Shown here piece by piece: positions 3,952-38,875 of a stretch of DNA of 38,875 nucleotides. Where the stretch lies: positions 1 to 38,875 of the IMG/VR virus record IMGVR_UViG_3300046455_000393; one strand, given 5' to 3'. Position numbers and translations under genes: made by a program. The first letter of the stretch is position 1; every line of letters starts with the position of its first letter. The notes under the pieces were generated by a model that was given only the letters and a program-made list of their open reading frames with translations, did not search any database and had not been told where the DNA came from. The DNA is from a virus.

Positions 3952-5166
3952 TCAGGACGCCGCGCCGGTGAACAGCTTCACGGCGCCGGTCTGGTCGACG
4001 AGCAGGCCGTCCGCGCGGATGATCGCCCGGAAGGTCACCAGGTCGGAGTTGAAGGCGTAGTCGTCGGACCGCTCGAACCGCACCCCGCCCGCCATGCGGA
4101 CGAAGTACTGCGAGATGTCGCCGAACGCCACGGACTTCGCGTTGAGCGCGATGGCCGCCACGTTCGGGTCCGTGTGCACCGGCTTGCCCAGCAGCATGTC
4201 CGGAGCGCCGACCTGGATGGACGGCTGCCACAGGTACTGGCCCTGGGAGTCCTTCAGCTTGCGAGCCGCACCGAGCGTTGCATCGCGCATCAGCCAGCCG
4301 CACGACGTGCTGTTCCGGTACGGAGCGATGACCGAGTAGTAGAGGTCGATCAGGTTGTCCGCGGTGAACGCGCCCACCACGCCGGTGCCGCCGGTCACGC
4401 CGGCCGACGCGGAGGTGATGATGCCGGTCGGCTTCGACGATCCGTCACCAGTGATCGCGTGGACGCCGAACGCGTTGCCCAACGCCCTGCCCGCCTGCAT
4501 GGCGAGGTAGCCCTCGAGGTCCACGCCCGTGTCGGTGAGCAGCTCGGTGGCCGCCTGGATCAGCACGGCGTACTTGTAGGCGCCCAGGGTCCGCTTGCCG
4601 AACGCCGGGTCCGACTCGCTGATCGCCGCGGCTTCGGCGGTGAGCGCGGCGCTGGAGTGCGCCGTGGTCACCGGGATCTCGATCGTCTCGCCGGACGCCG
4701 TGTTCAGCACGGTGGGCCCGGCCATCAGAATCCCGGACACCTCGATGAGGTGCGCCATCAGCTGGCCGTAGAAGGTGGTGGGGACCGTGTTGCCGCCCGC
4801 GGTCGTCGTGCCCTTGACCAGGTCACGGAAGGCGACCCCGGCCGGCTTCGCGACGTCGATGCTGCGGATCTCGCCGCGGGCCCACCGGCGCAGTTCGGAG
4901 TCCTCGACGGGCTGTCGCTCCTGCTCCTGCGGCTTGGCGAGCAGCCCAGCGAACGCGGCCTCGGCGTCCTTGGTCCGCTGCTCCGCCTCGGTCAGGTCCT
5001 TCACGCGAAGGTCGATCTTGTCGAGGTCCGCGTTGAAGGCCTGGTACTTGCCCTCTTCCTCGGCGGTCAGATCCCGCTTCTCGTTCTCGGCCGTGTCGAG
5101 CAGTTCCTTCGCCTGCTCCCACACGTTGGCGCGCCGCTCCTGCAGCGCCTTGATGAACGCAGTCAT
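3952..5166 (-). CDS. Major capsid protein, HK97 fold
   Basis: 404 aa, ATG at 5166 behind a near-perfect AGGAGG. Residues 1-80 form a charged coiled coil (ALQERRANVWEQAKELLD, LTAEEEGKYQAFNADLDKID), the delta domain that acts as scaffold and is removed by the prohead protease. The rest is the HK97 capsid body, with VNTVPTTFYGQL-like N-arm sequence and a conserved LTDTGVDLEGYLA spine helix region. It follows protease and portal as expected. Confidence 0.93.
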   Translation of the reverse strand: MTAFIKALQERRANVWEQAKELLDTAENEKRDLTAEEEGKYQAFNADLDKIDLRVKDLTEAEQRTKDAEAAFAGLLAKPQEQERQPVEDSELRRWARGEIRSIDVAKPAGVAFRDLVKGTTTAGGNTVPTTFYGQLMAHLIEVSGILMAGPTVLNTASGETIEIPVTTAHSSAALTAEAAAISESDPAFGKRTLGAYKYAVLIQAATELLTDTGVDLEGYLAMQAGRALGNAFGVHAITGDGSSKPTGIITSASAGVTGGTGVVGAFTADNLIDLYYSVIAPYRNSTSCGWLMRDATLGAARKLKDSQGQYLWQPSIQVGAPDMLLGKPVHTDPNVAAIALNAKSVAFGDISQYFVRMAGGVRFERSDDYAFNSDLVTFRAIIRADGLLVDQTGAVKLFTGAAS

Positions 5167-5254: not shown

Positions 5255-5929
5255 TCAGAAGGTGCGGCGCAAGTTCAGCTCGGCGCGCCGCTGCCGTACC
5301 GCCATGACCGGGTGGGTGTCGCCCTGCCCGGTCGGCGGGATGATCGTGGGGGCGGGGCCCGCGAGGAACCGCTTGAGCTCGCCGGCCTCCGCCGCGGCCC
5401 GGACCTCGGCCAGTTCGGCGCCCGCCTTCTCCGCCAGGGAGCGCAGGCCCGTGGACGTGTCCAGGTACGCAGGGTCGTTGACCGGGGCGACGTCGACCAG
5501 CTGGCCGGACAGCAGCGTCCGCACCGGGAAGCCGTCGTCTGTCATCGCCCAGTCGTCCTCGAACGTGTAGAACGCGAAGCTGGACTCGGCGACGTCGCCG
5601 CGCTGCACCAGCTCGTACACGTCGCCGCGCGCGGCCGGGACGTCCACGCTGTAGTCGAGGCCCGTGCCGTCCGTCTGCAGTCGCAGCGTGCCTGAGCGGG
5701 ACGTGCCCAGCAGCATGTTGTTGTCGTGGTTGTAGCGGGCCATCACGCGTGGCCAGCCGTCGCCCTCGCTCTTCGCGAAAAAGCCGGGGTCGATGCGCTC
5801 GACGAATCCGCCGAGGTTGCGGGACAGCGTGTTGAACTTCGCCGCGTACCCGCCGATGGTCCTGCTGTCGCCGGCCGCCCGGACCTCGACGAGGCCGCGC
5901 GTGAACCGACGCTCACTGTCGCCGTTCAT
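5255..5929 (-). CDS. Prohead protease, HK97/S78 family
   Basis: 224 aa, ATG at 5929 in a TGATG overlap with the portal stop. It contains the family pattern GYAAKFNTLSRNLGGFVERI, then a candidate catalytic His in ARYNHDNNMLLG and Ser in DVAESSFAFY. It cleaves the capsid delta domain and itself during maturation. The C-terminal 60 residues are helical and Ala/Glu-rich. Position between portal and capsid is canonical. Confidence 0.9.
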   Translation of the reverse strand: MNGDSERRFTRGLVEVRAAGDSRTIGGYAAKFNTLSRNLGGFVERIDPGFFAKSEGDGWPRVMARYNHDNNMLLGTSRSGTLRLQTDGTGLDYSVDVPAARGDVYELVQRGDVAESSFAFYTFEDDWAMTDDGFPVRTLLSGQLVDVAPVNDPAYLDTSTGLRSLAEKAGAELAEVRAAAEAGELKRFLAGPAPTIIPPTGQGDTHPVMAVRQRRAELNLRRTF

Positions 5930-7074
5930 CAGTTCTCGCTTTCGTCGGGCGCCACCTTGCCCAGTGGCGTGTAGTCCTGGCCCAGACCGTTGGGCAGGGG
6001 CGGCTCGTCCTCCACGCGCCGCAGCTCGTCGATGTTGTGCAGTCCGATCGCCCGGGAGATCCGGTGCGACTGGTAGCGGGTCAGGGTGTCGGTGCGCAGC
6101 ATCGCGTCCACGTTGAACCGCGCCTCTTCGGTGGGAGGCCGCAGCCAGGAGAACGCGTCCTCCAGCCGGGCCAGCCACGGACGCAGCGTCCACGTCAGCA
6201 GGTCGATGCTGTTCTGCTCGACCGTGGCGTAGGTGAGGCTGCCGCCCGTCTCCCCGCCGACCTTCTCCGGCGGCACCCCGTAGATCGCGGCGATCTGGTT
6301 CGCCGTTGCCTTGATGGTCTCCAGGAACTGGCTCTCGTTCGCGGGCACGGAGATGGCCCGGTACTTCACGCCGTTGCCCAGCGCCACCACGTCGCGGCCC
6401 TCGGCGGCCTCCTTGAACCGGGCCTTCAGGACGGTGGCCGCGTCACGGTCGACGGCCATGTCCGTCTCCAGGACGGCGCTCGGGGTAGACCCGTTGGCGA
6501 ACCAGTCCCGACCGAACTGCCCGGCCAGCAGGCCAGCCTCCGTCGTTGTCGCGAAGTACGCGATCGGCGACAGTCCCAGGATCTGACCGGGCACCGTGTA
6601 CGCCGGGATGTGGAACAGCTCGCCGTCCTCGAGACGCCGGCCCTTGTAGTACCAGACCGGGACCGCGGCAAGGTTGTCCTGGATGCCCACGTCGTCCGGG
6701 TGCAGCCACTCGATCTGGCTCGGCCAGCCGTCCGGGCCCCAGGCGACGACCAGCCCGTAAGCGTTGCCGCGCAGCGTCAGCGACGTCATGCACCGGTGCA
6801 GCCAGTCGTAGCGCGTGCCGGTCGCGGCCGGCCGCCGGAACAGCGGGGGCGTCGGGGCGCGCAGCCGGTCGTCTCCCTGCGTCCGGTAGGACTTCAGCGG
6901 CAGGGACGCCACGGAGTCCGCGAGCAGCCGCGTGGCCGCATACACGGGCCCCAGGCGGAGCGCCCGTTCCTGGCTGCCGCCGCGCAGGACGGCCGGATCG
7001 CCGCCCGCTCCCCACACGTCCTGGTACGAGATCGCCCGCTTCAACGCCGTGCGGCGGAAGGGCCACCACCTCAT
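5929..7074 (-). CDS. Portal protein, HK97 family
   Basis: 381 aa. Dodecameric ring at the unique capsid vertex through which DNA enters and leaves. Recognised by VYAATRLLADSVASLPLKSY near the N terminus, LTLRGNAYGLVVAWGPDG, and the stem/clip region GVPPEKVGGETGGSLTYATV. Length matches HK97-type portals. Starts 13 bases after the large terminase stop. Confidence 0.93.
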   Translation of the reverse strand: MRWWPFRRTALKRAISYQDVWGAGGDPAVLRGGSQERALRLGPVYAATRLLADSVASLPLKSYRTQGDDRLRAPTPPLFRRPAATGTRYDWLHRCMTSLTLRGNAYGLVVAWGPDGWPSQIEWLHPDDVGIQDNLAAVPVWYYKGRRLEDGELFHIPAYTVPGQILGLSPIAYFATTTEAGLLAGQFGRDWFANGSTPSAVLETDMAVDRDAATVLKARFKEAAEGRDVVALGNGVKYRAISVPANESQFLETIKATANQIAAIYGVPPEKVGGETGGSLTYATVEQNSIDLLTWTLRPWLARLEDAFSWLRPPTEEARFNVDAMLRTDTLTRYQSHRISRAIGLHNIDELRRVEDEPPLPNGLGQDYTPLGKVAPDESEN

Positions 7075-7087
7075 GTCGTCACCCTTC

Positions 7088-8617
7088 TCACCACACGCTC
7101 AGCAGGATGTCGCCCGGCGGCTCGACCTCGGCGCCCAGTCCCCACTTCGCGAGGGTCGAGGCGACGAGCGGGCTGATGTCGACGTTCACGCCGCGGCGGG
7201 CCCACGCCCACGCATCCCCGAGCGGCCGCTTCTGCGCGCCCGCCAGCGCCGTTGCGAGGGGCGCCTGGTCGAGGTGGCTGAGGGTCTGCTCGGTGACCGC
7301 GTCGTAGAACTGGCCGCAGGCCGACGCGATCTCGCGCGCCTTCGGCTGGACCACCTCGACACCGAGGCGCTGCTGCAGCTGCTCGATGATGGAGCCGGCC
7401 GGGCCGCCGCCGTCGACCACCCAGCACTTCGGCTTCCACCGCTTGTGCAGTTCCTCGGCCCGGTCCAGCAGCCATCCCGTGCCCGGCCGGTGCTCGACCA
7501 CCTCGACGTGCGTGCCGCCCCGCCACGCGCCCGCCACGGCGATCGCCGCGTGCGAGCGCTCGGGGGTCATGTCGATGGCGAACGCGACCTGCCCCTCGGG
7601 CCCGGAGTCCGCGTCCGCCAGCGCCCGCCACACGTCCTCGCCGATGACCTGCCACGTGTCCGCCGTGTCCGACGGGTACACGCCCACACCGAGCCGCTCG
7701 CGGGAGAACAGGGTGTCGCCCAGCGTCAGCCGCTCGTTCGCCGACTTCTCCAGCGTCAGCCGGTAGCCGATCGCCGGGTTCGACTTCAGGATCGACTTGG
7801 CGTCCGCCACGTCGTCGTGTTCCGTGCAGCCCTGCCCGCACTCGTCGCGGTGCTCGTTGATCGACCACTCGAAGTAGGCGAGCGTCGGATCCGGCACACC
7901 GGTCTCGGCGGCCGCCAGGGCCCGGCGCCGCAACCGGCCCAGCTGCACCGACTGGTGACCGATGCCCGCGCTCCCCAAGTACCACGTCTGCGGGTTGGCG
8001 ACCGCGGCCAGCGTCGGCGCGAGTGCCGCCATGGCGTCGTCGCCCAGGATCATGTCCTCGTCGAGGACCACGCAGTCCGCGGTGAAGCCACGACCGCTGC
8101 CGCCGGAGCGGGCGATGAACCGCAACTCCTGCCCGGAGTGCAGCTCAATGGCCTCGTCGCCCACTGTCTTCCGGTAGATCTTCACGCGTTTGTGCAGGTC
8201 AGGGCATGCACGGATCAGGTTCTCGACCCGCTTGTACGCGTTCTTCGCCGTCTTGAACTCGTGGGCGCTGTGCAGGATCAGCCGCTCACCGCCGATGAAC
8301 AGGCCCCACAACTCGCGGGCCTCGATGATTCCGCCCTTGCCGTTCTGCCTCGGGACGTTGACGCACACCTCGGGCGCCGCCCAGTTGCCGTCGGCGCGCT
8401 CGCCCATGCCCTGGTCGAGGACGTGCTGCTGCCACGGATCGAGCTTCAGCCCGGCGCGGGCCGCCAGGTCGACGGCCTCCTGCCCCGCGCTCGACAGCGC
8501 CTTGCCCGGCACGGTGAACACCCGGGGGCGCTGGCGGCCGTACACGGGGCCGTCAGCCACCGACGGCCCGCTCTGCTGCAGCGGCTCGGCGCTTCTTTCG
8601 CTGCTCAGCAATGTCAT
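7088..8617 (-). CDS. terL: Terminase large subunit
   Basis: 509 aa from the ATG at 8617, which has GGGGGA seven bases upstream and overlaps the small terminase by 65 bp. The packaging ATPase has a Walker A-like VPRQNGKGG near residues 89-96 and Walker B CVVLDED near 182-188; the C-terminal RNase H-like nuclease carries acidic residues in FAIDMTPE and CWVVDGGG. It cuts concatemers and drives DNA into the prohead with the portal. A longer frame upstream lies inside the small terminase gene and is not favoured. Confidence 0.92.
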   Translation of the reverse strand: MTLLSSERSAEPLQQSGPSVADGPVYGRQRPRVFTVPGKALSSAGQEAVDLAARAGLKLDPWQQHVLDQGMGERADGNWAAPEVCVNVPRQNGKGGIIEARELWGLFIGGERLILHSAHEFKTAKNAYKRVENLIRACPDLHKRVKIYRKTVGDEAIELHSGQELRFIARSGGSGRGFTADCVVLDEDMILGDDAMAALAPTLAAVANPQTWYLGSAGIGHQSVQLGRLRRRALAAAETGVPDPTLAYFEWSINEHRDECGQGCTEHDDVADAKSILKSNPAIGYRLTLEKSANERLTLGDTLFSRERLGVGVYPSDTADTWQVIGEDVWRALADADSGPEGQVAFAIDMTPERSHAAIAVAGAWRGGTHVEVVEHRPGTGWLLDRAEELHKRWKPKCWVVDGGGPAGSIIEQLQQRLGVEVVQPKAREIASACGQFYDAVTEQTLSHLDQAPLATALAGAQKRPLGDAWAWARRGVNVDISPLVASTLAKWGLGAEVEPPGDILLSVW

Positions 8618-8828
8618 CGACGGTGTCCCCCTTCTCCCCGACAGGGGCCAGCCGCCGCAGGTCGGCCATGATCGAACGGAGCTCGCGGGCAGCAACGGCC
8701 TTGGCGGTCGGGGCGTCCGTGCCAGCCATGGCCATCGCGAGGTCCAGGGCGACGGCCGCCATGCCGGGTGACGTCTCGTCGGCGTGGAGGTCTTCGAGCT
8801 CGTGAGTGATCTTGTCGACAATGCTCAC
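8553..8828 (-). CDS. terS: Terminase small subunit (putative)
   Basis: 91 aa from a GTG at 8828 with GGGGGT five to six bases upstream; a GTG two codons earlier has no room for a ribosome site. It is helical, beginning SIVDKITHELEDLHADE, with a basic end (AEQRKKRRAAAAERA). Short, charged helical proteins directly before TerL in actinophages are small terminases that recognise the packaging site. Called on position and composition; I see no clear HTH. Confidence 0.6.
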   Translation of the reverse strand: MSIVDKITHELEDLHADETSPGMAAVALDLAMAMAGTDAPTAKAVAARELRSIMADLRRLAPVGEKGDTVDDIAEQRKKRRAAAAERAVGG

Positions 8829-10895: not shown

Positions 10896-11096
10896 TCAAG
10901 CGGCCTTGGCTGTGGCGCGCTTGGCGACGAGGGCGGCGACGTCGGCGGCGGCGTACCAGGCCTGTCGCTGGGTGCCGCCGGAGCGGGAGAGCTGGCCTCG
11001 CTGGACGAGCTTGCGGACGGCCGGGAGGCCGACCCCGAGGACGCGGGCGGTCTGGTGGGCGGTGAGGTGGCCGGGCCGGACGATGAGCGACTCCAT
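10896..11096 (-). CDS. Small HTH DNA-binding protein (MerR/excisionase-like)
   Basis: 66 aa. LTAHQTARVLGVGLPAVRKL followed by VQRGQLSRSGG and QAWYAAADVAALV is the layout of helix-turn-helix 'helix_turn_helix_17/excisionase' proteins with a winged tip. In Streptomyces integrative elements such genes act as recombination directionality factors or as local regulators. It lies downstream of the FtsK-type gene, far from the integrase, so a regulatory role (for example on the nearby repeats) is as likely as excision. Confidence 0.7.
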   Translation of the reverse strand: MESLIVRPGHLTAHQTARVLGVGLPAVRKLVQRGQLSRSGGTQRQAWYAAADVAALVAKRATAKAA

Positions 11097-11183: not shown

Positions 11184-11269
11184 GAAACTCGAAACTTCCC
11201 AGCCCAGGGCCGATATCGGGGGCGAAACCGGTTTCGGACCAAGGTGAAACCACGGCCTTGATCCGAAAC
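11184..11269. repeat. GAAAC repeat cluster next to the translocase gene; candidate clt-like site
   Basis: Forward GAAAC at 11184, 11191, 11224, 11246 and 11265, and a reversed copy inside the perfect palindrome CGAAACCGGTTTCG (11223-11236). TraB proteins of Streptomyces conjugative plasmids recognise short direct repeats at a clt locus close to traB. The position directly after the translocase gene fits, but the repeats also form the hairpin listed separately, so a terminator-only role is possible. Confidence 0.4.
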
Positions 11270-11274
11270 CGGTT
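11226..11274 (-). terminator. Hairpin after the FtsK/TraB gene
   Basis: A 19-bp stem with one mismatch (AACCGGTTTCGGACCAAGG against 11256-11274) and an 11-base loop, starting nine bases past the translocase stop at 11283. It is likely a rho-independent-type terminator of the early operon without U-run. The same bases contain the GAAAC repeats. Confidence 0.65.
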
Positions 11275-11282
11275 CGAGGGCC

Positions 11283-13379
11283 CTACTCGGCGTCCTCGGC
11301 GGCGGGCAGATCGGCGTACCGGAGGCCCTTGGCTCCGCCGCAGCACTCACGGATCGTGAGCTGCCGGGTAGACACCTTGTACGGCTTCAGGGCGGCGGAG
11401 AGCGCCGTGGACGCCCCGGCGGCGTCCAGCTCGGTCCAGGGGCGGTACAGGTCGGCCCGGTACGCGGCCAAGGCCTCGACGAGCCGGTGCGAGTGGACCG
11501 TCTCGACGCCGTCCGGCCAGATGGCGTGCAGGTGGTCGAGGACCGTCTCGACGTCCTGCTCGGCGACCTGGGCGCCAACGGCCTGCCCGGTGAGAGTGCC
11601 GGCGGCCGTGCGGAGCGCGAGGGCGCGCTTGGCAATGTCCTCGGCCTCGGTCTGCTTGATGAACGCGGCGCGCACGGTGATGCCCTCGCGGCCGCGGGCG
11701 AGGATGCCGGTGCCCTGCTCGTCGACGGAGATGTCGGTGGCCCGGAGGCCCCGGTCGTAGGCGCCGGTGCCGAGCACGTTGTTGTTGGCCCGCCAGTCCA
11801 TGACGGCCAGGCACAGGCGGGTGCCGACGCTGCTGGACACGGAGGACGGCAGGGACGGGGCGTCGGGGTTCTGGGTGAGCAGGATGAGGATGAGGCCGTA
11901 GGCGCGGCCCTTCTTGATCAGGCGGGTGGCCAGGGCGGCGGCTTCCTCCTTGTAGTCGGCGTGGGTGAACAGCTCCTGCACCTCGTCGATGACGATGACG
12001 CGGGGGCCGAGCTGCTGCTCGGGGTACTTCTCGGCGAGCGCCCGGGTGACCTTGCGGCCCTCGGGAACCTCGGAGGCGGGCAGGGAGCGGATGAAGGCGG
12101 CGCGGCGCTGGTACTCGGCGATACCGGAGCGCATGCCGCCGAGGGCGGCTTCGAGGTCGGGCTCGTCGTCGCCGGAGACGTAGCGGTGGCAGACGGGCTT
12201 GACGGAGTCGAGGTCGCCGGATCCCTTGAGTTCGTAGATCCACAGCTCGGCGGTGGGGTCGAGGGCGGCGCCGAGGACGAGGGCGAGCGCGCAGGACGTC
12301 TTGCCGGAGCCGGGGATGCCTCCGACCAGCAGGTTCGAGTACATGAGGGTGATCTCGACGAGGTTGCCGCGCGGGTCGAAGCCGTAGGGCAGGGGCTCGT
12401 ACACGTCGGCCTGGCCCTCGCGCATGAGGGGCCACAGCTTCCGGCCGGCCTTGGCGGGGTCGCGCTGGGCGACCCACAGGACCAGGCGGCCGGGGTGGGC
12501 GGTGCGGTCGGCCTCCGGCCACACGGTGCTGATGGGGCGGCGCATGGCGGCGGCGAGCGCGGCCCGCTTCTCCAGGACGGCGGTGGCCTCGATGCCGGGG
12601 GGCAGGTCGACCTCGGCGCGCCAGCCGGGCCCGTCGCGCATCACCTCGGCGGCGAACTCCACGCCCTTGCGGCCCTTCTTGCCCTCGATGCCGATGGCCG
12701 CGAGCGCGTCGAACACCTCGGTGCTGTCCAGCCGCCGCAGGACGTTGGTGGCGACGTACCGGGTGATGAGCGCCTTGTCGCCCTTCTTGCCGTTCAGGCC
12801 GGCCAGGGCGGCGGCACCGACGCAGGCGGCGAGCGTCCAGCCAGGGACGAGGAACGCACTGACCAGCGTGGTGATGCCGGTGGCCGTGGCGACGGCGATG
12901 GAGGCGACGCGGCGGGGCCGGACGCGACGGGAGTGCTCCCGGGACAGGGCGAGCCACGCCTCGATGTCCGCGCTGGCGGCGGCCTTGGCCTCGACGGGCC
13001 GGGCCTCGGTGTCGGCGACCCAGCGGCCCCAGCGGACGACGAACCGGCCGGTGCCGCGAGGGGCGCGCAGGAGCAACCGCCCGAAGTAGACCGGGACGCG
13101 GAGGACGTGGAAGCCAGCGACGTGTCCGTAGTAGGACGCGGTCCAGCGGACGGCTTCCTTGAAGGCGTCCCAGCGGCGCAGGGCCGGGGGGACGATGGGC
13201 GGGGCCTCGGCGAGGTAGGCCTGGCGTTCAGCGATCCATGTGCCGTCGGCGGCGGGCTCGGGGCGGTCGACGGGACGCGGCTCGGCGTTCTGGATGATGT
13301 CGAGGACGGTCTGCCGGGCGGCAGCGTCCTGGGCGTCCTCGGGGGCGTCCTGTAGCGGCTTGATCAGGCTGTCGGTCAT
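11283..13379 (-). CDS. TraB/FtsK-SpoIIIE-type DNA translocase
   Basis: 698 aa, ATG at 13379 behind GGAGAG. The N-terminal third carries a basic region and a membrane-anchoring pair near residues 155-195 (VASIAVATATGITTLVSAFL and WTLAACVGAAALAGL). The FtsK ATPase domain follows: Walker A VGGIPGSGKTSCAL and Walker B VIVIDEVQEL, then ILLTQNPDAPSLP. The last 40 residues (LKPYKVSTRQLTIRECCGG) look like a winged-helix gamma-type DNA-reading tip. This architecture is that of the sole motor of Streptomyces double-strand-DNA conjugation (TraB/TraSA), not of a packaging terminase, which is present separately. It is the last gene of the early unit and follows Spd-like membrane genes. Confidence 0.87.
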   Translation of the reverse strand: MTDSLIKPLQDAPEDAQDAAARQTVLDIIQNAEPRPVDRPEPAADGTWIAERQAYLAEAPPIVPPALRRWDAFKEAVRWTASYYGHVAGFHVLRVPVYFGRLLLRAPRGTGRFVVRWGRWVADTEARPVEAKAAASADIEAWLALSREHSRRVRPRRVASIAVATATGITTLVSAFLVPGWTLAACVGAAALAGLNGKKGDKALITRYVATNVLRRLDSTEVFDALAAIGIEGKKGRKGVEFAAEVMRDGPGWRAEVDLPPGIEATAVLEKRAALAAAMRRPISTVWPEADRTAHPGRLVLWVAQRDPAKAGRKLWPLMREGQADVYEPLPYGFDPRGNLVEITLMYSNLLVGGIPGSGKTSCALALVLGAALDPTAELWIYELKGSGDLDSVKPVCHRYVSGDDEPDLEAALGGMRSGIAEYQRRAAFIRSLPASEVPEGRKVTRALAEKYPEQQLGPRVIVIDEVQELFTHADYKEEAAALATRLIKKGRAYGLILILLTQNPDAPSLPSSVSSSVGTRLCLAVMDWRANNNVLGTGAYDRGLRATDISVDEQGTGILARGREGITVRAAFIKQTEAEDIAKRALALRTAAGTLTGQAVGAQVAEQDVETVLDHLHAIWPDGVETVHSHRLVEALAAYRADLYRPWTELDAAGASTALSAALKPYKVSTRQLTIRECCGGAKGLRYADLPAAEDAE

Positions 13380-13415
13380 GCTGGTCTCTCCGGTTGCTCG
13401 ATGGGCGGTCCGGGG

Positions 13416-13458
13416 CCCGGGGACGGCGGCTGCTTGGCGGTAGGACGCCGTCCCCGGG
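13416..13458 (-). terminator. Intercistronic hairpin before the translocase gene
   Basis: Perfect 13-bp stem (CCCGGGGACGGCG / CGCCGTCCCCGGG) with a 17-base loop, between the 57-aa gene and the TraB-like gene. It probably lowers read-through into the translocase or protects the upstream message. Confidence 0.6.
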
Positions 13459-13464
13459 GCGGTG

Positions 13465-13638
13465 CTACTTGCCGCGGTTGTTCTCGCGCTCCTGCGCCTT
13501 CTCCCGGATCCGGTCGACGCGCTTCTCCAGCTGCTTCACGGACTTGCCGCGGTTCTTGCGCCGGTCGATGCGGACGCCGAGCAGGAGCACCTTCGCCAGC
13601 TCGCGGGCGTTGTGCGGGTCGTGCTTGGAGACGGGCAT
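13465..13638 (-). CDS. Small basic protein
   Basis: 57 aa, strongly basic and helical (RIDRRKNRGKSVKQLEKRVD, then REKAQERENNRGK). ATG at 13638 with GGAGG upstream. It forms one predicted charged helix, possibly a nucleic-acid binder. No family recognised. It belongs to the group of small genes between the Spd-like protein and the translocase. Confidence 0.6.
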   Translation of the reverse strand: MPVSKHDPHNARELAKVLLLGVRIDRRKNRGKSVKQLEKRVDRIREKAQERENNRGK

Positions 13639-13640
13639 GG

Positions 13641-13838
13641 TCAGGCCTCCAGGGCTGCGGCGATGTCGGCGTGGGCGCTCGCGATGTCGGCCCACAGGGA
13701 GCCGGCGGCGGCGAGGGGGACGGCGAGGGCGCGGGCGTCGCCGCGGGCCGCGCGCTCGGCGTCCCGGGCGAGGGTGGCGGCGCGGGACACGGCGGCTTCC
13801 GCCATGGTCAGGCGCTGCTCTCGGTTGAGTTCGGGCAT
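13641..13838 (-). CDS. Small helical protein in the transfer-like block
   Basis: 65 aa, Ala-rich, two predicted helices (NREQRLTMAEAAVSRAATLA and GSLWADIASAHADIAAALEA). ATG at 13838 with AGGAAG. Small Ala-rich helical proteins accompany tra/spd genes on Streptomyces elements, but I cannot name a family. Confidence 0.6.
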   Translation of the reverse strand: MPELNREQRLTMAEAAVSRAATLARDAERAARGDARALAVPLAAAGSLWADIASAHADIAAALEA

Positions 13839-13841
13839 CGG

Positions 13842-14141
13842 TTACTTCCTCTTCTGGAGGTCGCCCCAGATGGAGCGGAGGACGAGGGCGAGGATCGCGA
13901 CGGACACGGCGCCGATGGCCACGGCGATGGCGAACAGGGAGGCGACCAGGCCCCCGGCGATGCCGAGGCCGCCGATGGTCAGCCACTTCCGGGCGTCGAA
14001 CTCCTGCCGGGCCTGCTGCGGGGCGGGCGCCTGCTCCGCGGTGGCCTTCTGCACGGCGAGGATCGCGGTGATCGTCCGCATCAGCTCGGTGTTGTCGGCG
14101 GCCTCGACCGCGTCCCGGGCCGCCTTCTCGATGTCGCTCAC
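13842..14141 (-). CDS. Small membrane protein, possible Spd-type
   Basis: 99 aa, GTG start at 14141 in a GTGA overlap with the preceding gene. A soluble N-terminal helix precedes a glycine-rich hydrophobic region of about 35 residues (WLTIGGLGIAGGLVASLFAI and beyond) that can cross the membrane twice. The tight overlap with the larger Spd-like protein suggests the two act together. In Streptomyces elements, sets of small membrane Spd proteins spread transferred DNA between hyphal compartments. Confidence 0.6.
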   Translation of the reverse strand: MSDIEKAARDAVEAADNTELMRTITAILAVQKATAEQAPAPQQARQEFDARKWLTIGGLGIAGGLVASLFAIAVAIGAVSVAILALVLRSIWGDLQKRK

Positions 14142-15088
14142 GGGTTGCCCCCGCCCGGCCCGGCCAGTGCCTTCTCCCGGTCGTACAGGGCGTCGATGGT
14201 GTCCCATGCCCCAGTCAGACCTTGGGCGTTCATCTCAGCCCGCATCGCCGCCCGGAACTGCCGCTTCGAGGGCGGTGGATCCGTCGCGTACAGCTCGGCG
14301 GCGAGCATCGCTACCGCCTTGCTGTTCGCTGTCCGCGGCCCCTCCAGCGGGGGCGTGCCGGAGCCGTGACTGCCCTGCGTGACTGCCAGGCCCGAACCCC
14401 CCGCGCCACCTGCGGCTTCGTCGTCCGGCACGCCTCCCGCCAAGAGGGCCCGCAACTCGGTGTCGGAGACCAGGGCGGGGAGGTCGGCGTGCCAGTCCGG
14501 CACGGGGTGCTCGTCGACGATCGCCGCGTACTCCTCCAGCGCGTCGTGAGTGGTGGTGATGGCTTCGGCCTCGGCTGCGTGGGACGCCTTCACGATGTCT
14601 GCGGCAGCGAGGGTCTCGGCTGCCCGTGCCGCGGCGACGGCACGGGAGACGGCGATGCGGTCACGGGTGCCGGCACGGGTGCGGTCGATGGCGGCCTGTG
14701 CCCGCGGGCTGATCCGGGTGCGCTCCCGGTCGATCGCCATGACGAGGGTCATCTTCGCGAGGACGGGGATGATCGCGCCGACCGCCGCGGCGAGAGCGTC
14801 TCCGGCGAGGGCGCCATGGATGGCGAGCACCGCGACTGTAAGGGGAAGGAACACCCACCCGATCGCCACGGGGAGTCGGGCGCTGGATCCCTGCCGGCGG
14901 TGCGCGGTCTCCTGCGCGAGGGCGTACAGCCAGACGGCGTCGTAGAGGACGGCGACGGAGTAGGCGAAGGCGGGGTGGGCGGTGGCGGTGAGGATGTCGC
15001 CGATCGCGGCGACGGCCCACACGACGGCGACAGTGGTGAGGGCGGCGGGCAGGGCCCAGGGCGCTGCCTTCTTCAGGTGGTTCTTCAT
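14138..15088 (-). CDS. Multi-pass membrane protein, SpdB-like (transfer/spread)
   Basis: 316 aa, ATG at 15088 in an ATGA overlap with the 56-aa gene. Residues 8-125 hold four hydrophobic segments (WALPAALTTVAVVWAVAAIG, HPAFAYSVAVLYDAVWLYAL, LPVAIGWVFLPLTVAVLAIH, AAAVGAIIPVLAKMTLVMAI), followed by a long Ala/Glu-rich helical region and a C-terminal part with SKRQFRAAMRAEMNAQG that may be an HTH. This is the topology of SpdB-type proteins encoded beside TraB in Streptomyces conjugative plasmids and AICEs. Named by topology and neighbourhood rather than by a signature motif. Confidence 0.6.
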   Translation of the reverse strand: MKNHLKKAAPWALPAALTTVAVVWAVAAIGDILTATAHPAFAYSVAVLYDAVWLYALAQETAHRRQGSSARLPVAIGWVFLPLTVAVLAIHGALAGDALAAAVGAIIPVLAKMTLVMAIDRERTRISPRAQAAIDRTRAGTRDRIAVSRAVAAARAAETLAAADIVKASHAAEAEAITTTHDALEEYAAIVDEHPVPDWHADLPALVSDTELRALLAGGVPDDEAAGGAGGSGLAVTQGSHGSGTPPLEGPRTANSKAVAMLAAELYATDPPPSKRQFRAAMRAEMNAQGLTGAWDTIDALYDREKALAGPGGGNP

Positions 15089-15255
15089 CGCGCGGCCACC
15101 GCCTCGGCGGCCGAGGCGATCAGGTGGGCGTCGTCGCGGTGGTTCTGGGCGCGGCGGGCGGCGCTGCTGGCGTAGTCCTCGTCGCACAGGCGGTGCAGCT
15201 CAGCGATGGACGGGGTGGTGCCGCGCTGGGGCGCGGGCATGGAAAGATCGGTCAT
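15085..15255 (-). CDS. Small protein upstream of the SpdB-like gene
   Basis: 56 aa, ATG at 15255 with AGGAGT upstream and a 4-bp overlap (ATGA) with the next gene. Sequence includes TPSIAELHRLCDEDYASSAA and ends in an Ala-rich helix. Unknown function; coupling to the membrane protein suggests shared function. Confidence 0.6.
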   Translation of the reverse strand: MTDLSMPAPQRGTTPSIAELHRLCDEDYASSAARRAQNHRDDAHLIASAAEAVAAR

Positions 15256-19010: not shown

Positions 19011-21536
19011 TCATCGGCCGTAGTCCTCTCCGTCGTAGCCGGGGCTGGAGGGGGAGGTGAGGCGGATCCCGTCGAAGTACCGCATGCGGCTGGTGCGTCC
19101 GGACTGGACGTTGTACGGCGCCCGCTGGAGGGTCGCGGCGAACTTCTTCGCCGACACCGGTTCCTCGCCCTCCTGTTGGCACCAGGCTTCGTAGGCGCCG
19201 CGCAGGGCGCCGCTCGCGGTCTGCATGGCGAGGGCGCCGGGTGCGCCAAGGACGCACATGTCGGCGACGAACCGGGCGACGGTGTCCTGCTCGCCCTGGT
19301 ACTCGTCGGTCGCGGCCTGCACGGCGGCCGGGGTGGTGAGTCCGTGCTGGGCGTAGTCGGCTGCGCCGCGGATCAGCCAGGCGAGGATGGCCGGGCCTTC
19401 GCGGTCGACGAGGTGGTCTTCGAGGCCGGTGTCGCGCAGGTGCTCGGGCACGGTGTGCAGGAAGGGGACGAGGCGCAGGCGCCGCCAGAAGGCGGGGCCG
19501 CCGGTGCGGACTGCAGGGCGGTGGTTGCCGAGGAGCCACAGGGTGTGGGTGGGGGCGAAGGAGAAGAAGTCCTGGCGCATGAACCGGCCGGTGATGATGT
19601 CGCGGCCGGTGAGCATCTTGATCCTGGCTTCGGCGAAGCGCTGTCCGTCGTCGAGTTCGGAGGCGACGACGAGGCGGGCGCCGGCCAGGCGGGCGATCTC
19701 GGTGGGGTGGTTGCTGGCCGAGGAGGCGAGCAGCATTTCGGAGGGGGCGGAGATGGCGTAGCCGGTCTCGCCGATGCCGACGAGTTTCATGACGGTGTCG
19801 GCGAGGGTGCTCTTGCCGTTGGCGCCGTCGCCGAAGGCGAAGGGGAGGACCTGTTCGAGGACGGTGCCGATGAGGGACAGGCCGAGCATGCGCTGCACGT
19901 AGGTGATGAGGTCGGGGTCGCTGCCGAAGGTGTCGGCGAGGAACTGGTGGAAGCGGACGGCGGGTTGCTCGGGGTCGGGGGCGACGGCGGTGGTGCGGGT
20001 GTGGAGGGCGGCACGGTCGGGCGGGCCGATCCGTCCGGTGCGCAGGTCGACGACTCCGGCTGGGGTGTTGAGCTGCCAGGGGCTGGCGTCGAGGGTGTCG
20101 ATGGGGGCGACGATGCGGGGGTCGGTGCGGGCGACCTTGACCATGGACTCCAGGCCGCGGGCTGAGAGGGAGCGGGCTTTGTGCTGGGCGTCGCCGTCGG
20201 CTTCGGGGAGGGAGCGGGCGACGTCGCGGGCGAGTTCGGCGACGTGGCCGCGGTCGTCCCAGGTCCAGCGGTGGTCGTCCCAGGTGAGCCATCCGCGCTG
20301 GGGGCAGTAGCGGATGTCGTCGGTGTGGCGGTCGACGAGGCGCAGGGCGTTGCCGTCGTCGGTGCGGCTGTAGGTGGCGGGCCCGGCTTCGGGGCTGGGC
20401 TCGGTGACCTTGAGTGCGGCGGTGCCGTCGGTTGCCGGGGCCGGGCCGGACTGCGGGGGGACGACGGCCAGGTGCCGGGTGGGTTCGGGGCGGCTGCCGT
20501 AGCCCTGGGCGCGCAGCGCGCGGGCGGCCGCGCTGTGGTCGCCGCCGTGTTCGAGGACGGCGTAGGCACCGAACTTGGTGTACGGCCGCTCGGGGTCGAA
20601 CTCGGTGGAGGTGGAGAAGACGTAGAGGCGGTCGCGGTCGGCGGCGTGTCCGGTGGTCGCGGAGATCATGCCCTGGTCTTTGCCGGGCCTGCGCCAGTAC
20701 GAGGTCTGTCCGCCGGAGCGGACGAGGGTCCAGCCGTGCGGCTTGAGGATGTCGGCCCACGGGGTGCGCCGCTCGTAGTCGTCGCCGGGCCGGACGGCGC
20801 CGGGGTCCTCGAGGACCGGAGCACTGCCGAGGAGGAAAGCGTTCGCGGCGTCCGTCGCCGGGGCCGGGGTGACCCGCTCGGCGGGGGCGGGCATCTGGTC
20901 GAGCATGCGGGCGACGGCGAACAGGGCGTCGCGCTCGTCGGCGGTGATGGTCGGCACGGTGGCGGGGCCGCCCGCGGCGAGCTGCCATGGCAGGCCGGTC
21001 GGGTGGACGGGGCCGTGCGAGGGGGCGGTGACGACGAAGCCGCCTTCGCCGCGGGTCTCGATGAGCGGCTTGACCTTGTCGCTGGGCTTGGCCGCGATCT
21101 CCTCGGCCGTAGCTCGGCGGCGGGCGAGCTTGGTGTTCGGGAGGACGGGCCCGTCGGTGACGCGGTAGACGAGGTGCCCACCGCCGGACGGGGTCGTTTC
21201 GAGGTAGCCGTCGCGGAGGCGCTGCCACAGTTCGCCGAGTCCGGAGTCGTCGCAGATCTCGGTGAACTCGGCGGCGACGCCTTCGGTGACGGCGCGGCCT
21301 TCGAACTCCAGCATCTCCAGGTCGCCGGACACGGCGCCGAGGATGATGCCGATGCCGGGGTGGCCGCCGGAGAACCAGGCGTGCAGCTGCTCGGCGGTGG
21401 CGCGTTCGGTTTGGGCCCGCTTCCACTGGCCGAGCGGGGCCTTGGTGCCGTCGGCGGCCGCGCGGACGACGCTCGCGCCGGCGGCGTGCCAGGCGAGCGC
21501 TGCGGTGAGCGTGTCCTGCGGCGGCGTGGTGCTCAA
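19011..21536 (-). CDS. Prim-Pol primase / SF3 helicase fusion (P4 alpha-like)
   Basis: 841 aa, TTG start at 21536 with AAGGAG five to six bases upstream. N-terminal bifunctional primase-polymerase domain: GASVVRAAADGTKAPLGQWK, then VSGDLEMLEFEGR (where the usual D-x-D reads E-F-E), TPSGGGHLVYRV and GGFVVTAPSHGP. C-terminal D5_N/SF3 helicase: Walker A GDGANGKST at about 570-578, LVVASELDDG as the B motif and HTLWLLGNHRP as the sensor. It both unwinds and primes at the origin, which lies next to it. Same architecture as in Streptomyces AICEs and satellite P4. Confidence 0.92.
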   Translation of the reverse strand: MSTTPPQDTLTAALAWHAAGASVVRAAADGTKAPLGQWKRAQTERATAEQLHAWFSGGHPGIGIILGAVSGDLEMLEFEGRAVTEGVAAEFTEICDDSGLGELWQRLRDGYLETTPSGGGHLVYRVTDGPVLPNTKLARRRATAEEIAAKPSDKVKPLIETRGEGGFVVTAPSHGPVHPTGLPWQLAAGGPATVPTITADERDALFAVARMLDQMPAPAERVTPAPATDAANAFLLGSAPVLEDPGAVRPGDDYERRTPWADILKPHGWTLVRSGGQTSYWRRPGKDQGMISATTGHAADRDRLYVFSTSTEFDPERPYTKFGAYAVLEHGGDHSAAARALRAQGYGSRPEPTRHLAVVPPQSGPAPATDGTAALKVTEPSPEAGPATYSRTDDGNALRLVDRHTDDIRYCPQRGWLTWDDHRWTWDDRGHVAELARDVARSLPEADGDAQHKARSLSARGLESMVKVARTDPRIVAPIDTLDASPWQLNTPAGVVDLRTGRIGPPDRAALHTRTTAVAPDPEQPAVRFHQFLADTFGSDPDLITYVQRMLGLSLIGTVLEQVLPFAFGDGANGKSTLADTVMKLVGIGETGYAISAPSEMLLASSASNHPTEIARLAGARLVVASELDDGQRFAEARIKMLTGRDIITGRFMRQDFFSFAPTHTLWLLGNHRPAVRTGGPAFWRRLRLVPFLHTVPEHLRDTGLEDHLVDREGPAILAWLIRGAADYAQHGLTTPAAVQAATDEYQGEQDTVARFVADMCVLGAPGALAMQTASGALRGAYEAWCQQEGEEPVSAKKFAATLQRAPYNVQSGRTSRMRYFDGIRLTSPSSPGYDGEDYGR

Positions 21537-25769: not shown

Positions 25770-27164
25770 ATGCCCTATCCCGAACTGCGCGGGAACAAGT
25801 GGCGGGTCCGGTGGAACACCGGCAAGAAGCACCCCGAGAACGGGCGCTGGCTGTACGACAGCCAGAGTGGCTTCGACAGCCGTGACGAGGCGGTCGCCTA
25901 CGGGCTCGACCGCGAGTCCGACATCCGCAACGACCGCTACGTCTCCCGCCGGGACGGCTCCGTCCTGATGCGGGAGTACTGCCGCACCTGGCAGCAGACC
26001 ATCCGCGTCGGCCACCTTCGGCGCCGGAACATCGAGTCGTACATCCGGCTGTACATCGAGCCCCGCTGGGGCGACGTGGCCGTCGCCGACATCCGGGCCT
26101 CCACCTATCGGGCCTGGGTCCTGTGGCTGGAGGACCAGCCCAACATCGGCGACCGGTACCGCGGGGAGATCCTCCTCGTCTTCAGCATGATGATGGACGA
26201 CGCCGTCGACGACGGCCTGCGCCAGGCATCGCCCGTGCAGAAGAAGAAGCGGCGCGGCCAGTACGTCAAGACGAAGCGCGAGCGGAAACGACCCATGGTC
26301 ATCGCCGACGTGCACCAGCTCGCATGCAACGCTCTCTCCTTCTGGGGGTTCGCCGGGTACGCCTACGTGTGGACGTCCGTCATGACGGGCATGCGTCCGG
26401 CCGAGCTGTACGGGCTGCGCCGCGAGTACTGCACCCCCAACTGGCCGGCCTCCGACCCGCGGCCCGACCCCGGCGAAGCGGAGCGGTACGCGGAGGACGT
26501 GAAGCGGTACGCCGGGGCCACTCCGATGCCTGCGATCCGGGTGGAGTGGCAGCACCAGCGGGCCGGCGGTACGGGTGAGCCTGGCTTGTACCCTCCGAAG
26601 TACGAGTCGCGCCGGACGCTCGTGGTGCCGCAGTTCGTGGCGGAGTTGCTGGAGATCCTCCTGGCCAGCCACGAGTCGGAGTGGGTGTTTCCGTCAATCA
26701 ATAACGGCCCGCTGATCAACGCGAACTTCACCTACCACTACTGGCGGAAGTTCGCCGACGGGCGTCCGCCGCGGGCGGAGTTCGAGCGGGTGCGGTTGGG
26801 TCAGCGGCAGACGGTGGACTCCCGGCGGCCGCTCCCCGAGCTGCCGACGGTTGAGGCCTGGAAGGGCAAGCGACAGTACCTGACGCGGCACGGGCACAAG
26901 GAGTGGCTGGACGAGGACGGGCATAGCCGGATCGCGGTGGAGACGCGGATGGGCCACGAGCTGGCGGGGGTCGAGGGCCTGTACTCGAACGTGACGCCGG
27001 TGATGGAGCGGGGCATCATGGAGACGCTCCAGCTGCGGTGGCTGCGGTTCGCGGCGGGACTCCCGGACGGATGGGAGCCACCCCCATCTCCCACTCCTCT
27101 CCCAGAACCGTTCTCGGACTGGGTGGAGTTGCAGGTCAAAGCCGGTCGAGCTTTGCCGTTGTAG
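25770..27164 (+). CDS. int: Tyrosine recombinase integrase
   Basis: 464 aa, ATG after GGGGGATGACCT. N-terminal arm/SAM-like domain (MREYCRTWQQTIRVGHLRRR, IEPRWGDVAVADI), then catalytic domain with Arg in MTGMRPAELYGLRRE, Lys in KYESRRTLVVPQF, and the second Arg in YLTRHGHKEWLDE; GHELAGVEGLYSNVTP supplies the tyrosine. In the usual HxxR motif the first residue here appears as Tyr (YLTR). It would integrate at a site in host uppP, whose 3' end lies just beyond the gene. Confidence 0.92.
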   Translation: MPYPELRGNKWRVRWNTGKKHPENGRWLYDSQSGFDSRDEAVAYGLDRESDIRNDRYVSRRDGSVLMREYCRTWQQTIRVGHLRRRNIESYIRLYIEPRWGDVAVADIRASTYRAWVLWLEDQPNIGDRYRGEILLVFSMMMDDAVDDGLRQASPVQKKKRRGQYVKTKRERKRPMVIADVHQLACNALSFWGFAGYAYVWTSVMTGMRPAELYGLRREYCTPNWPASDPRPDPGEAERYAEDVKRYAGATPMPAIRVEWQHQRAGGTGEPGLYPPKYESRRTLVVPQFVAELLEILLASHESEWVFPSINNGPLINANFTYHYWRKFADGRPPRAEFERVRLGQRQTVDSRRPLPELPTVEAWKGKRQYLTRHGHKEWLDEDGHSRIAVETRMGHELAGVEGLYSNVTPVMERGIMETLQLRWLRFAAGLPDGWEPPPSPTPLPEPFSDWVELQVKAGRALPL

Positions 27165-30329: not shown

Positions 30330-30626
30330 TCAGGACTCCTTCTGCGCGAGTGCGCGGGTGTGCGCGTCGAGGCGCGCGTACTTCTCCTCGGTGTCGTGGC
30401 CATCCCACGTACCGGTGCCGACGGTCACGTGCTCGAACAGATCGATGTCGGCGGGGTTGATGTGCCAGGAGACCTGGCCTGTCGGCAGGTCGATGAAGAT
30501 GACCGGCCAGTCCGGGGCGTCCGGGTCCGCGCGGTAGACGAGGACCGACGGATACCCGGCGGCGAGGTGCGCGATAAGGTGGTGCCGCTCGCGGTAGACG
30601 ATCTGGAGCGCGTCAACGGCGGTCAC
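30330..30626 (-). CDS. Hypothetical protein between endolysin and holin
   Basis: 98 aa, GTG in a GTGA overlap with the endolysin. ALQIVYRERHHLIAHLAAGY, then WPVIFIDLPTGQVSWHIN and HVTVGTGTWDGHDTEEKYAR: soluble, His/Asp/Trp-rich, common in Streptomyces phage lysis cassettes. Function unknown. Confidence 0.65.
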   Translation of the reverse strand: MTAVDALQIVYRERHHLIAHLAAGYPSVLVYRADPDAPDWPVIFIDLPTGQVSWHINPADIDLFEHVTVGTGTWDGHDTEEKYARLDAHTRALAQKES

Positions 30627-31468
30627 GAGGCGCTCGGCCCGGTGACGTCGACGTGCACCTTGACCACCGCTTCAGCGATGGCCGCCTTCACCGCTGCCAC
30701 CACGGCAGCCGTGTCAACGTTCTTGCCGACCAGCCCGGCGAGCTGCGTGATCGCCGCGGTCTGCGCGGCCTCCGCAGTGCGCACCGCGTCGATCCGCTTG
30801 AGGATCTCCGTCTGCACGCTCGACAGGGTCCACGTCGGGTTCGTGGTCGGTGCGCCAGGGACGGAGATGATCCCGTCCAGGGTGAGCACCTCCCGCGCGA
30901 CCTCAGCAGCAGTAGGCATGTCGTCCTCCTCGATGGGTGCGCCGGCCGCGCGGGCGACGATGCCCGGGAACACGACCGTCTTGAACTGGGCGACCCGCGC
31001 ATCCCCCGGGCACGAGTGCGCCGACGGGTTCCACGCGTCGAACAGCCGGTGATAGCCGAACCCCGGGTCGTCCGCGGTGCGGCAGATCCGCAACGGGATC
31101 CCGTGCTGCTCGTGCAGCCACACGCCGAGCCGGATCAGCGCCTCGACCTGCTGCGCCGTCCACGGGTCGGAGGCCTGCAAGTTGGACGCGGACTCCAGCG
31201 ACACCGCGCCGGTACCGTCCGCGCGCCGGTTCGCCGCGGCGTTCGCATCGGCGCGGGTCTCGGTCCCGATGAACTGGCCGAGGCTGCCGTCGTAGCCGAG
31301 CCCGAAGTGCGACTCCAAGTTGGTGGAGTCGCGCCAGTATTCGTAGGTTCGCTGCGGAGTCCACGGGGCGACGATGCTGTGCACGATGAACTGCGTCGGC
31401 CGGATCGCCGGCTGACTGTCGGACTCCGGCTGGAGTTCCATCCGTGTGGCGCCCGGATACCAGGCCAT
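30623..31468 (-). CDS. Endolysin, N-acetylmuramoyl-L-alanine amidase
   Basis: 281 aa, ATG at 31468. Residues 20-175 form an amidase_2/PGRP domain: zinc ligands His in TQFIVHSIVAP, His in GFGYHRLFDAWNP and Cys/His in SAHSCPGDAR. It cuts the bond between muramic acid and the peptide stem. The C-terminal 100 residues are helical (VQTEILKRIDAVRTAEAAQT) without recognisable wall-binding repeats and may oligomerise. Confidence 0.88.
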   Translation of the reverse strand: MAWYPGATRMELQPESDSQPAIRPTQFIVHSIVAPWTPQRTYEYWRDSTNLESHFGLGYDGSLGQFIGTETRADANAAANRRADGTGAVSLESASNLQASDPWTAQQVEALIRLGVWLHEQHGIPLRICRTADDPGFGYHRLFDAWNPSAHSCPGDARVAQFKTVVFPGIVARAAGAPIEEDDMPTAAEVAREVLTLDGIISVPGAPTTNPTWTLSSVQTEILKRIDAVRTAEAAQTAAITQLAGLVGKNVDTAAVVAAVKAAIAEAVVKVHVDVTGPSAS

Positions 31469-38400: not shown

Positions 38401-38875
38401 CGCGGACCGCAGCGAACCCGTCGCGAAGTCGGCGAATTTCTTCGAGAGGCCGTCGACGGCCGGGCTCATCATGCCGCCGGCCAGGGTGGTCATGAAGCGG
38501 TCCAGCTCGGTGGAGGCCCCCTTCACCAGGGGGGTCAGCTTCGGCAGCATCGCCGAGGCGACCGCCAACCCCTTGGTGAAGACGGGCATCGTGTCCTTGG
38601 CCAGCCCGTCCGACCAGGCCCGGTACTCCTTCTTCAGCGTCGACAGCCCAGCAGCCGCCTCACGGGAGGCCGTCGGCATCTTCGCGATCTGCTGCTGGAA
38701 TTCCGTCTGCGCCGTGATCGCAGCCTCGGACGTCGCGCCTGACTTGGCGACAGCATCCTCGTACTTCTTCTGCGCTTCGCTCGCGTCGGACAGTGCGCCG
38801 ATCTGCGGGATGATCGCCGCACCGAACGCGGCCACGGCGACAGCCGCCGCACCCGCACCCGCGGCGAGCGGTGCC
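35467..38875 (-). CDS. Tape measure protein, main part (continues to 1-267)
   Basis: Together with 1-267 it encodes 1,182 aa, sets tail length and is ejected with the DNA. Long helical stretches (SDASEAQKKYEDAVAKSG, QAQEALAAQKLSADGL), a hydrophobic region (LNIAAVGIGLFTVAMIQL), and Gly-rich repeats followed by a C-terminal GIKSPSTVMAQLGRY motif typical of tape measure proteins. Bases 38749-38875 duplicate 1-127. Confidence 0.93.
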   Translation of the reverse strand, partial: APLAAGAGAAAVAVAAFGAAIIPQIGALSDASEAQKKYEDAVAKSGATSEAAITAQTEFQQQIAKMPTASREAAAGLSTLKKEYRAWSDGLAKDTMPVFTKGLAVASAMLPKLTPLVKGASTELDRFMTTLAGGMMSPAVDGLSKKFADFATGSLRSANDGLVHLMRTLDTGKVGGALSEFMDYARAQGPLLAETLKNVATAALHLLQAASGVGGGVLQLANAAASLVASLPPGFITVLMQTAVAIRAVKLAGSGFQLLVGGFDAAAAAIRGMGTAALGSATTMGSLRRAAGTLSTQAKLNIAAVGIGLFTVAMIQLSKVGKAAPPDVDKLTTSLGNLARTGKATGEAARVFGDDLSGLYDSVRNITDPSTADKAQQWMVKIGSLGISDSTPHNEAKERLDAIDKSLTSLARGGKADLAAVALKRLGAEYAKNGHSAAEFTNQMSSYKSALADAAFEQDLAAEAQGLFGKQAQKAQEALAAQKLSADGLRQSIQALNDAQRAGIGGMIGFEASIDAAAKAAKENHGALHMINGELDLNSPKAQAAATALNDLAAKTDEAAAQTRQSTGSWEAANRVYARGREKLIESARAMGLTKSEAKALADQILRTPDKTARLKGNIDDLEAKVTAAKKKLSTVPASKKAAVKGDISNLLYEVSRAQRRLNEIDGKTAVTYILMKTKTSNSGTVFHEGGNYANGGMVGFPGGGPISGPGTGTSDSIPIMASNGEYMINARSTAKYRSLVEAINADRLGGGRGMPGAGAAVAQGLMSGMASSTSGVGAAARAMAAAVVTGIKAELEIASPSKKTKALAKDVGKGFINGLTDSRDKIKSVSKDLAADVRTAFSGKKESSLLKMIDKQTAKLLTAATKRDALVKKLAEAKAFASDVTKNAREGAGLSNLGMDADSVTAGGIKGGLASKLAQVKQFTKYIDMLAKKGLNKSLLHQILNMGPEQGYAYASALVGADKATFSSINSLETQINKSTKSLGQVGADRMYDSGKNAGRGFLKGLEGQQKDIENLMLKIAKGMQKAIKKALGIKSPSTVMAQLGRYTTQGLAHGLVDAVPHVDRALGVVAGRVAGTRPVLGRPAVAGAGGGGMVVNVHIEQAMDPVAVGREIQRVLVRFGRAQGASVRLSVGG
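38749..38875. repeat. Terminal direct repeat (right copy)
   Basis: Exact second copy of bases 1-127; see the left copy. It lies inside the tape-measure gene, so that stretch of the gene appears twice in the window. Confidence 0.93.

Follow-up and report, generated by a model that had tools for sequence, protein, structure and literature searches.

Why should a phage that encodes its own head, tail and lysis proteins also carry a DNA motor of the type that Streptomyces plasmids use for conjugation? The question is raised by a 38,875 bp virus genome (IMG/VR record IMGVR_UViG_3300046455_000393; "the window" denotes this whole stretch of DNA), which displays an exact 127-bp terminal repeat and is therefore taken to be the circularly closed, complete genome of a 38.9-kb siphophage. 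Its leftward genes start with replication (Prim-Pol/D5); a transfer block (15.2-11.3 kb) comes next, and beyond it lie terminase, portal, protease, capsid, tape measure and lysis. We consider it probable that this transfer block is a TraB-type conjugative module, comprised of a motor, membrane companions and a cis-acting site, which has been exchanged horizontally between actinomycete integrative and conjugative elements (AICEs) and temperate siphophages of mycelial actinobacteria.

The central gene of the block, traB (11283..13379, minus strand), encodes a TraB/FtsK-type double-stranded DNA (dsDNA) translocase of 698 aa, assigned by Pfam (FtsK_SpoIIIE, PF01580, 1.3e-7, above cut-off), by phrog_1358 (FtsK/SpoIIIE, 5e-28), by its structural model and by its place in the tree. 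The Walker A motif GGIPGSGKTS (residues 353-362; 12294..12323, minus strand) has G353, G359, K360 and T361 invariant among 63 sequences, and hydropathy reveals two adjacent hydrophobic segments within residues 160-193. Among solved structures, the AlphaFold model (mean predicted local distance difference test score, pLDDT, 81.7) resembles FtsK motors (VIA Z 30.6) and also TcpA, the conjugation protein of pCW3 (Z 27). A preliminary description made from the letters of the window had proposed a 698-aa FtsK/TraB motor with a Walker A motif and a membrane pair, which is borne out by the Pfam, phrog, hydropathy and model results. The winged-helix-like tip that it also proposed appears in the model as a C-terminal domain (residues 613-687; 11319..11543, minus strand; DSSP order H-E-H-H-H-E-E), a putative DNA-reading tip; in the structural comparison with the whole model the matches fell on the motor, leaving the winged helix uncovered. 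Residues 590-692 weakly resemble the C-terminus of an AICE RepAM/DUF3631 protein (conditional E-value 8e-4), hinting at a DNA-reading domain common to AICE transfer and replication proteins; the like C-termini belong to 11319-11609 (minus strand) and to the RepAM/DUF3631 protein at L066:13605-14768. The ratio of nonsynonymous to synonymous substitution (dN/dS) of traB against eight relatives, a rough Nei-Gojobori (NG86) estimate, is about 0.15-0.35, indicating purifying selection, and TraB is conserved at full length in some 40 relatives; both indicate that the gene is in use.

Relatives of TraB were found on 41 IMG/VR contigs (64-100% identity) and in GTDB genomes, where 300 relatives were detected and the best 80 loci were read (single loci are cited by L numbers); the GTDB scan used a narrow alignment, the broad one having no stretch that was conserved enough. 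The host genera of these 80 loci are all hyphal. Classed by their neighbouring genes, the loci comprise phages with an HK97-type module (type A), phages with an SPP1-portal module (type B), phages with tail genes on the opposite strand (type C, an assignment that rests mostly on the tape-measure gene and, for L045 and L072, on capsid and portal genes situated some 20 kb off), and capsid-less AICEs, in which a replication gene and an integrase lie just downstream. The type B loci L013, L014, L057 and L064 share the TraB clade (75-88%), with an SPP1-type portal and a phrog_19179 terminase replacing the HK97-type module. To judge from these gene contents, the same TraB motor is combined with no fewer than two, and probably with three, different virion gene sets. 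The best plasmid match (41.7%) is the FtsK of NZ_CP107792, an 18.4-kb circular element of Streptomyces sp. NBC_00562 that carries Prim-Pol, an integrase and DUF2637 and has no virion genes; by its gene content this element is an excised AICE.

Alignment of the DNA past the traB stop codon across these relatives disclosed a non-coding stretch of about 100 bp whose conservation is far above that of its flanks. In the window this candidate cis-acting transfer site (clt; 11184..11270, minus strand) starts 12 bp past the stop codon and contains five RGTTTC and one GAAACY copies, a dyad GAAACCGGTTTC (11224-11235) and a tandem AGTTTCGAGTTTCGG, its pattern across relatives being ccGGTTTCGGATCAAGG..GTGGTTTCACCTTG.TCCGAAACCGGTTTCG...GATATC...AGTTTCGAGTTTCGG. 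Six of the 19 RGTTTC/GAAACY copies of the entire window fall within these 87 bp, the best of 200 Markov shuffles giving three copies per 110 bp. The degenerate GTTTC block emerged only from the alignment of relatives; an exact 8-mer scan of the window detected no pSVH1-type cluster of 8-bp exact repeats, although on pSVH1 itself it recovers the known GACCCGGA clt immediately behind traB.

The GTTTC block is present in 67 of 69 relatives whose TraB is at least 47% identical, phages and AICEs alike (including six of six scorable AICEs), and in none of the 54 relatives with TraB of 37-46% identity, 51 of which possess a CTAG-type block at the same spot; for random 160-bp stretches taken from these loci the background rate is 1%. 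In both clades, on a reading by eye, two half-sites about 7-8 bp apart come some 26-27 bp behind a dyad or half-site. The CTAG-type dyads, e.g. GCTAGCGCTAGC and GCTATCGATAGC, lie in the roughly 100 bp that follow traB in L082-L133, L002 and L004, often followed by TGATCAG and two half-sites, and represent a candidate clt of the Prim-Pol AICE clade. Among 296 Streptomyces genomes the core pattern of the GTTTC block occurred 11 times (reversed control, 0), nine of these directly after a TraB gene of the window's clade. We read the block as a candidate clt on which TraB would load, since the clt sites of pSVH1 and pWTY27 lie at the same place. In pWTY27, deletion and footprinting with TraA map the site, with its direct and inverted repeats, to 16 bp of traA and the adjacent 159 bp (PMC3583192); according to one survey, no clt motif has been described even for the archetypal AICE pSAM2 (PMC9513070).

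Upstream of traB, four further genes on the minus strand complete the block: a small basic open reading frame (ORF) just upstream (MPVSKHDP...; 13465..13638; reading frame only), a 65-aa ORF (13641..13838; supported by codon-position GC, no family match), a 121-aa protein with one transmembrane (TM) segment (13842..14207; hydropathy), and, in the position occupied by spd genes (the spd slot), a 316-aa membrane protein with four hydrophobic segments (14138..15088; hydropathy), whose ATG start lies inside a longer ORF. The small overlapping companions noted in the preliminary description are thus present, and a profile of the 121-aa protein, which is conserved in the phage clade, found 45 loci including the AICE L066. 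The four-segment protein had been called SpdB-like, a comparison that stands for its shape and position and fails for family, as neither Pfam nor profile comparison matched it to DUF2637 (PF10935); that identity was dropped. Its model is poor (pLDDT 66), and a homologue is found in the AICE locus L132 (2e-69). In near relatives with TraB 87-95% identical the spd slot is filled by DUF2637 proteins. Relatives whose protein in this slot matches PF10935 include L009 (4.1e-15), L013, L068 and L071. A profile of SpdB2 from pSVH1 gave no match to the DUF2637 set.

In Streptomyces plasmids and AICEs, TraB alone performs the primary transfer of dsDNA, and Spd proteins aid its spread across septa (PMC3218068, PMC5365140). 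In view of its homology, its operon and its cis-site, the module of the phage most probably serves to carry viral DNA over the boundaries between mycelial cells. We infer that TraB would act once the phage DNA has been excised or while its circular form is being replicated: its N-terminal hydrophobic pair would hold it at the membrane or septum, its C-terminal winged helices would bind the repeats that lie immediately 3' of traB, and the motor assembled there would pump double-stranded phage DNA across cross-walls into neighbouring compartments or into a touching hypha, assisted by the membrane proteins of the spd slot. Having arrived there, the element would be able to integrate, to replicate or to start lytic growth. 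The same molecular parts would serve equally if TraB were confined to spread or segregation of the phage within one mycelium, by septum crossing or episome partition, and never acted between strains. Such a restricted role fits the hyphal growth of all carriers among the loci read and the spd-slot membrane gene that adjoins traB in most loci where it is recognisable, and virions already provide for inter-strain transfer; it is at odds with the primary transfer that this same single protein carries out in AICEs and plasmids, and with the clt-like site, a feature used by intermycelial transfer. We therefore regard it as unlikely, though worth keeping in mind. The fullest form of the conjugative reading, i.e. 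a truly dual-mode lineage in which TraB acting at its own clt moves whole phage genomes as dsDNA without virions, and in which the TraB-clt cassette has passed to and fro among AICEs and two or more virion lineages, is put forward tentatively, as a possibility falling somewhat short of probable.

Several observations weigh against the reading as a conjugative module with a clt. Two of the 11 genomic copies of the core pattern (L145:8135 and L146:8054, in Streptomyces genomes G295 and G274) belong to prophages that lack a cognate TraB for about 8 kb around the copy, and no TraB of that clade occurs anywhere in these genomes. The GTTTC block is absent at this spot from the relatives L055 and L076 and from the Pseudonocardia phage-plasmid L050. 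The switch between CTAG and GTTTC types occurs once on the tree, so that co-variation with TraB rests mainly on constancy within each clade. The proximal part of the block forms an inverted repeat of 41 bp, whose arms co-vary in part and which has a strong predicted RNA fold (z -3.0), and the 316-aa membrane protein is, by sequence, not a recognised Spd protein. The first of these orphan copies has a GntR-like regulator and a capsid gene as its neighbours, and the second belongs to a phage whose tape measure is like that of the window; such prophages are candidates for relics, or for phages mobilised in trans. L055, a phage whose TraB is 87% identical, possesses another inverted repeat, TTAAGTGTTGCATCGCT...AGCGATGCAACACTTA, just past the FtsK stop codon.

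A strong inverted repeat right past a stop codon, together with orphan copies in two TraB-less prophages, would suit a transcription terminator or an early/late regulatory site, TraB being a functional passenger that loads independently of the block. A terminator, however, leaves unexplained the invariant GTTTC half-sites and the distal tandem pair 27 bp on at fixed spacing; the primary sequence of the block is moreover kept in front of different downstream genes (Prim-Pol in AICE L066, a helix-turn-helix (HTH) gene in many phages), and distant AICEs retain the multi-dyad layout with another core. On balance a purely regulatory block seems improbable to us, without being negligible, and the reading as a clt is preferred. 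The repeats are also iteron-like, and in many AICEs the block lies between tra and rep, as would a replication origin; the replicase of the window, however, is located 5 kb off on the other side of traB. The same block type accompanies at least three types of replication protein (D5, Toprim/DUF3987 and RepAM), which makes an origin very unlikely.

The history of the motor was reconstructed with a maximum-likelihood tree of 72 TraBs (quick search; support by SH-aLRT, the Shimodaira-Hasegawa-like approximate likelihood ratio test). The TraB of the window falls inside a Streptomyces phage clade that is itself nested among AICE TraBs, its sisters including the capsid-less AICEs L066 (71%; Prim-Pol, RepAM/DUF3631 and integrase; S. 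verrucosisporus) and L068/L038 (73%; L068 with a Toprim/DUF3987 primase and integrase). The L066 and L068 genomes yielded no portal or capsid match for the Pfam families tested. Deeper sisters in Actinomadura and Nocardiopsis likewise mix phages and AICEs, and the plasmid TraBs of pSVH1, pSG5 and pFP11 fall outside. At least six changes between phage and AICE are required, and virions of types A, B and C are interspersed on the tree; the history of the transfer gene is therefore distinct from that of the virion genes. A phage-only FtsK clade, the grouping that the preliminary description had named as telling against conjugation, is not what the tree displays; the clt-reading tip, whose lack had been named alongside it, has a putative counterpart in the winged helix of the model, and clt-like repeats follow the gene. 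Some phages do carry FtsK-like genes, and PHROGs lists this family under moron/host takeover, as would befit a phage-specific FtsK engaged in host takeover, DNA entry or dimer resolution with no tie to conjugation; yet 50,697 records of isolated phages gave one distant match (Streptomyces phage Gilgamesh, 24.5%), and the nearest kin beyond the phage clade are AICE TraBs, which renders that function a remote prospect. Although the block lies between traB and terminase in most phages, a packaging (cos/pac) site has next to nothing left to commend it, the block being found also in elements without recognised virion genes (L066, L068, L071, L077-079) as well as in phages of types A and B, whose terminases are unlike.

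The remainder of the window is that of a phage, in agreement with the head, tail and lysis gene set claimed for it in the preliminary description. On the minus strand are encoded an HK97-type major capsid protein (3952..5166; PF05065, 1.9e-65), a head maturation protease (5255..6193; phrog_80, 2e-37), a portal (5929..7074; PF04860, 4.7e-63), a large terminase (7088..8821; phrog_9, 5.6e-78), a phage-type Prim-Pol/D5 replicase (19011..21536; Pfam Prim-Pol and D5_N), an endolysin (30623..31468; phrog_1493, 4.6e-10) and a tape measure protein (35467..38835; tail/tape-measure phrogs down to 4.7e-27). The 464-aa integrase (25770..27164; phrog_1 integrase, 7e-27; no Pfam match at 0.01) is on the plus strand, opposite to the leftward genes. 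Directly downstream of the repeat block lies a 66-aa HTH_17/excisionase-like protein (10896..11096, minus strand; HTH_17 2.5e-4 and 'excise' 0.0055, both below cut-off). Also on the minus strand, a P-loop AAA_33 kinase-like protein (9066-9500) and, among 9859-10131 and 10150-10398, an HNH endonuclease and a two-TM protein are placed between traB and terminase, and a phrog_1590 protein (17224-18015) has a C-terminal stretch that resembles phage WhiB-like regulators (2e-5). An Rfam search gave no RNA family match.

AICEs are defined by Int, a Rep (RepSA, RepAM or Prim-Pol) and an FtsK-type Tra (PMC3218068). The window has this gene set, and it also has the capsid, portal, terminase, tape measure and endolysin that an element free of virion genes would lack. 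The Prim-Pol/SF3 replicase and integrase that had been counted as AICE parts are both present; the nearest matches of the replicase are replicases of Arthrobacter phages (46.7%), so that the transfer module alone is AICE-like. To call the window an AICE core wrapped in a virus was thus an overstatement; by gene content it is better described as a phage bearing an AICE-type transfer module.

TraB-bearing temperate viruses of Streptomyces and its relatives form a widespread group, which may travel from cell to cell as naked DNA as well as in the form of particles. A literature search combining DUF2637, phage and FtsK found no paper. As far as the literature shows, what is new is a lineage of siphophages that encode an integrase and an AICE-type TraB, together with its exchange with AICEs over several virion types and a clade-wide candidate clt; the block offers a candidate transfer site for an AICE family and, if the dual-mode reading is true, would be the first such site to be defined in this family of AICEs and phages. 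The capsid would then be an optional coat, and deletion of virion genes need not immobilise such prophages. The boundary between virus and conjugative element is blurred here by a concrete module, which may account for the colonisation of multi-compartment mycelium by these phages, and which surveys of conjugative elements that exclude prophages would miss.

Among known systems, pSVH1 resembles the window in its FtsK motor with a C-terminal DNA-reading domain and in the cluster of short repeats right after traB; it differs in its repeat (GACCCGGA), in its identity of 31% over the motor only, and in that no hydrophobic pair was detected in its TraB. In pWTY27, whose TraA has 688 aa and two TM segments, the clt likewise lies at the 3' end of tra, has been footprinted and contains direct and inverted repeats (PMC3583192); these are TGACACC/CCCGCCC, the comparison being by description only. 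The Pseudonocardia 'plasmids' pPaSha2 (CP052773, L050) and NZ_CP053567 (L005), typed by MOB-suite as 'non-mobilizable', are phage genomes that carry genes for capsid, terminase, FtsK and DUF2637 together on a single circular element, as the window combines virion and transfer genes; their identities are 40% and 30%, and no GTTTC block follows ftsK. AICE modules with Prim-Pol/RepAM (NBC_00562, NZ_CP107792; L066) share with the window a TraB homologue (42-71%), a repeat block directly 3' of traB and, upstream, membrane companions, which are DUF2637 in NBC_00562 and a homologue of the 121-aa one-TM protein in L066; they differ in having AICE-type replication proteins adjoining tra, no virion genes and, in NBC_00562, CTAG-type repeats.

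Streptomyces plasmid-phages that conjugate and form virions are already known: pZL12/phiZL12 is reported as a conjugative plasmid-phage with virion and conjugal genes on one element (PMC3583192, PMC4170104), and PhiNon1 of Nonomuraea has been likened to it (PMC5431353). The gene content of the window, virion genes and a conjugal tra gene on one element, is of this kind. As these papers describe it, pZL12 is an episomal theta-type plasmid that needs its tra gene and two adjacent genes; the phages of the window's lineage, set apart from it by description only, are mostly about 35-42 kb in size and carry an integrase and a clt-like block.

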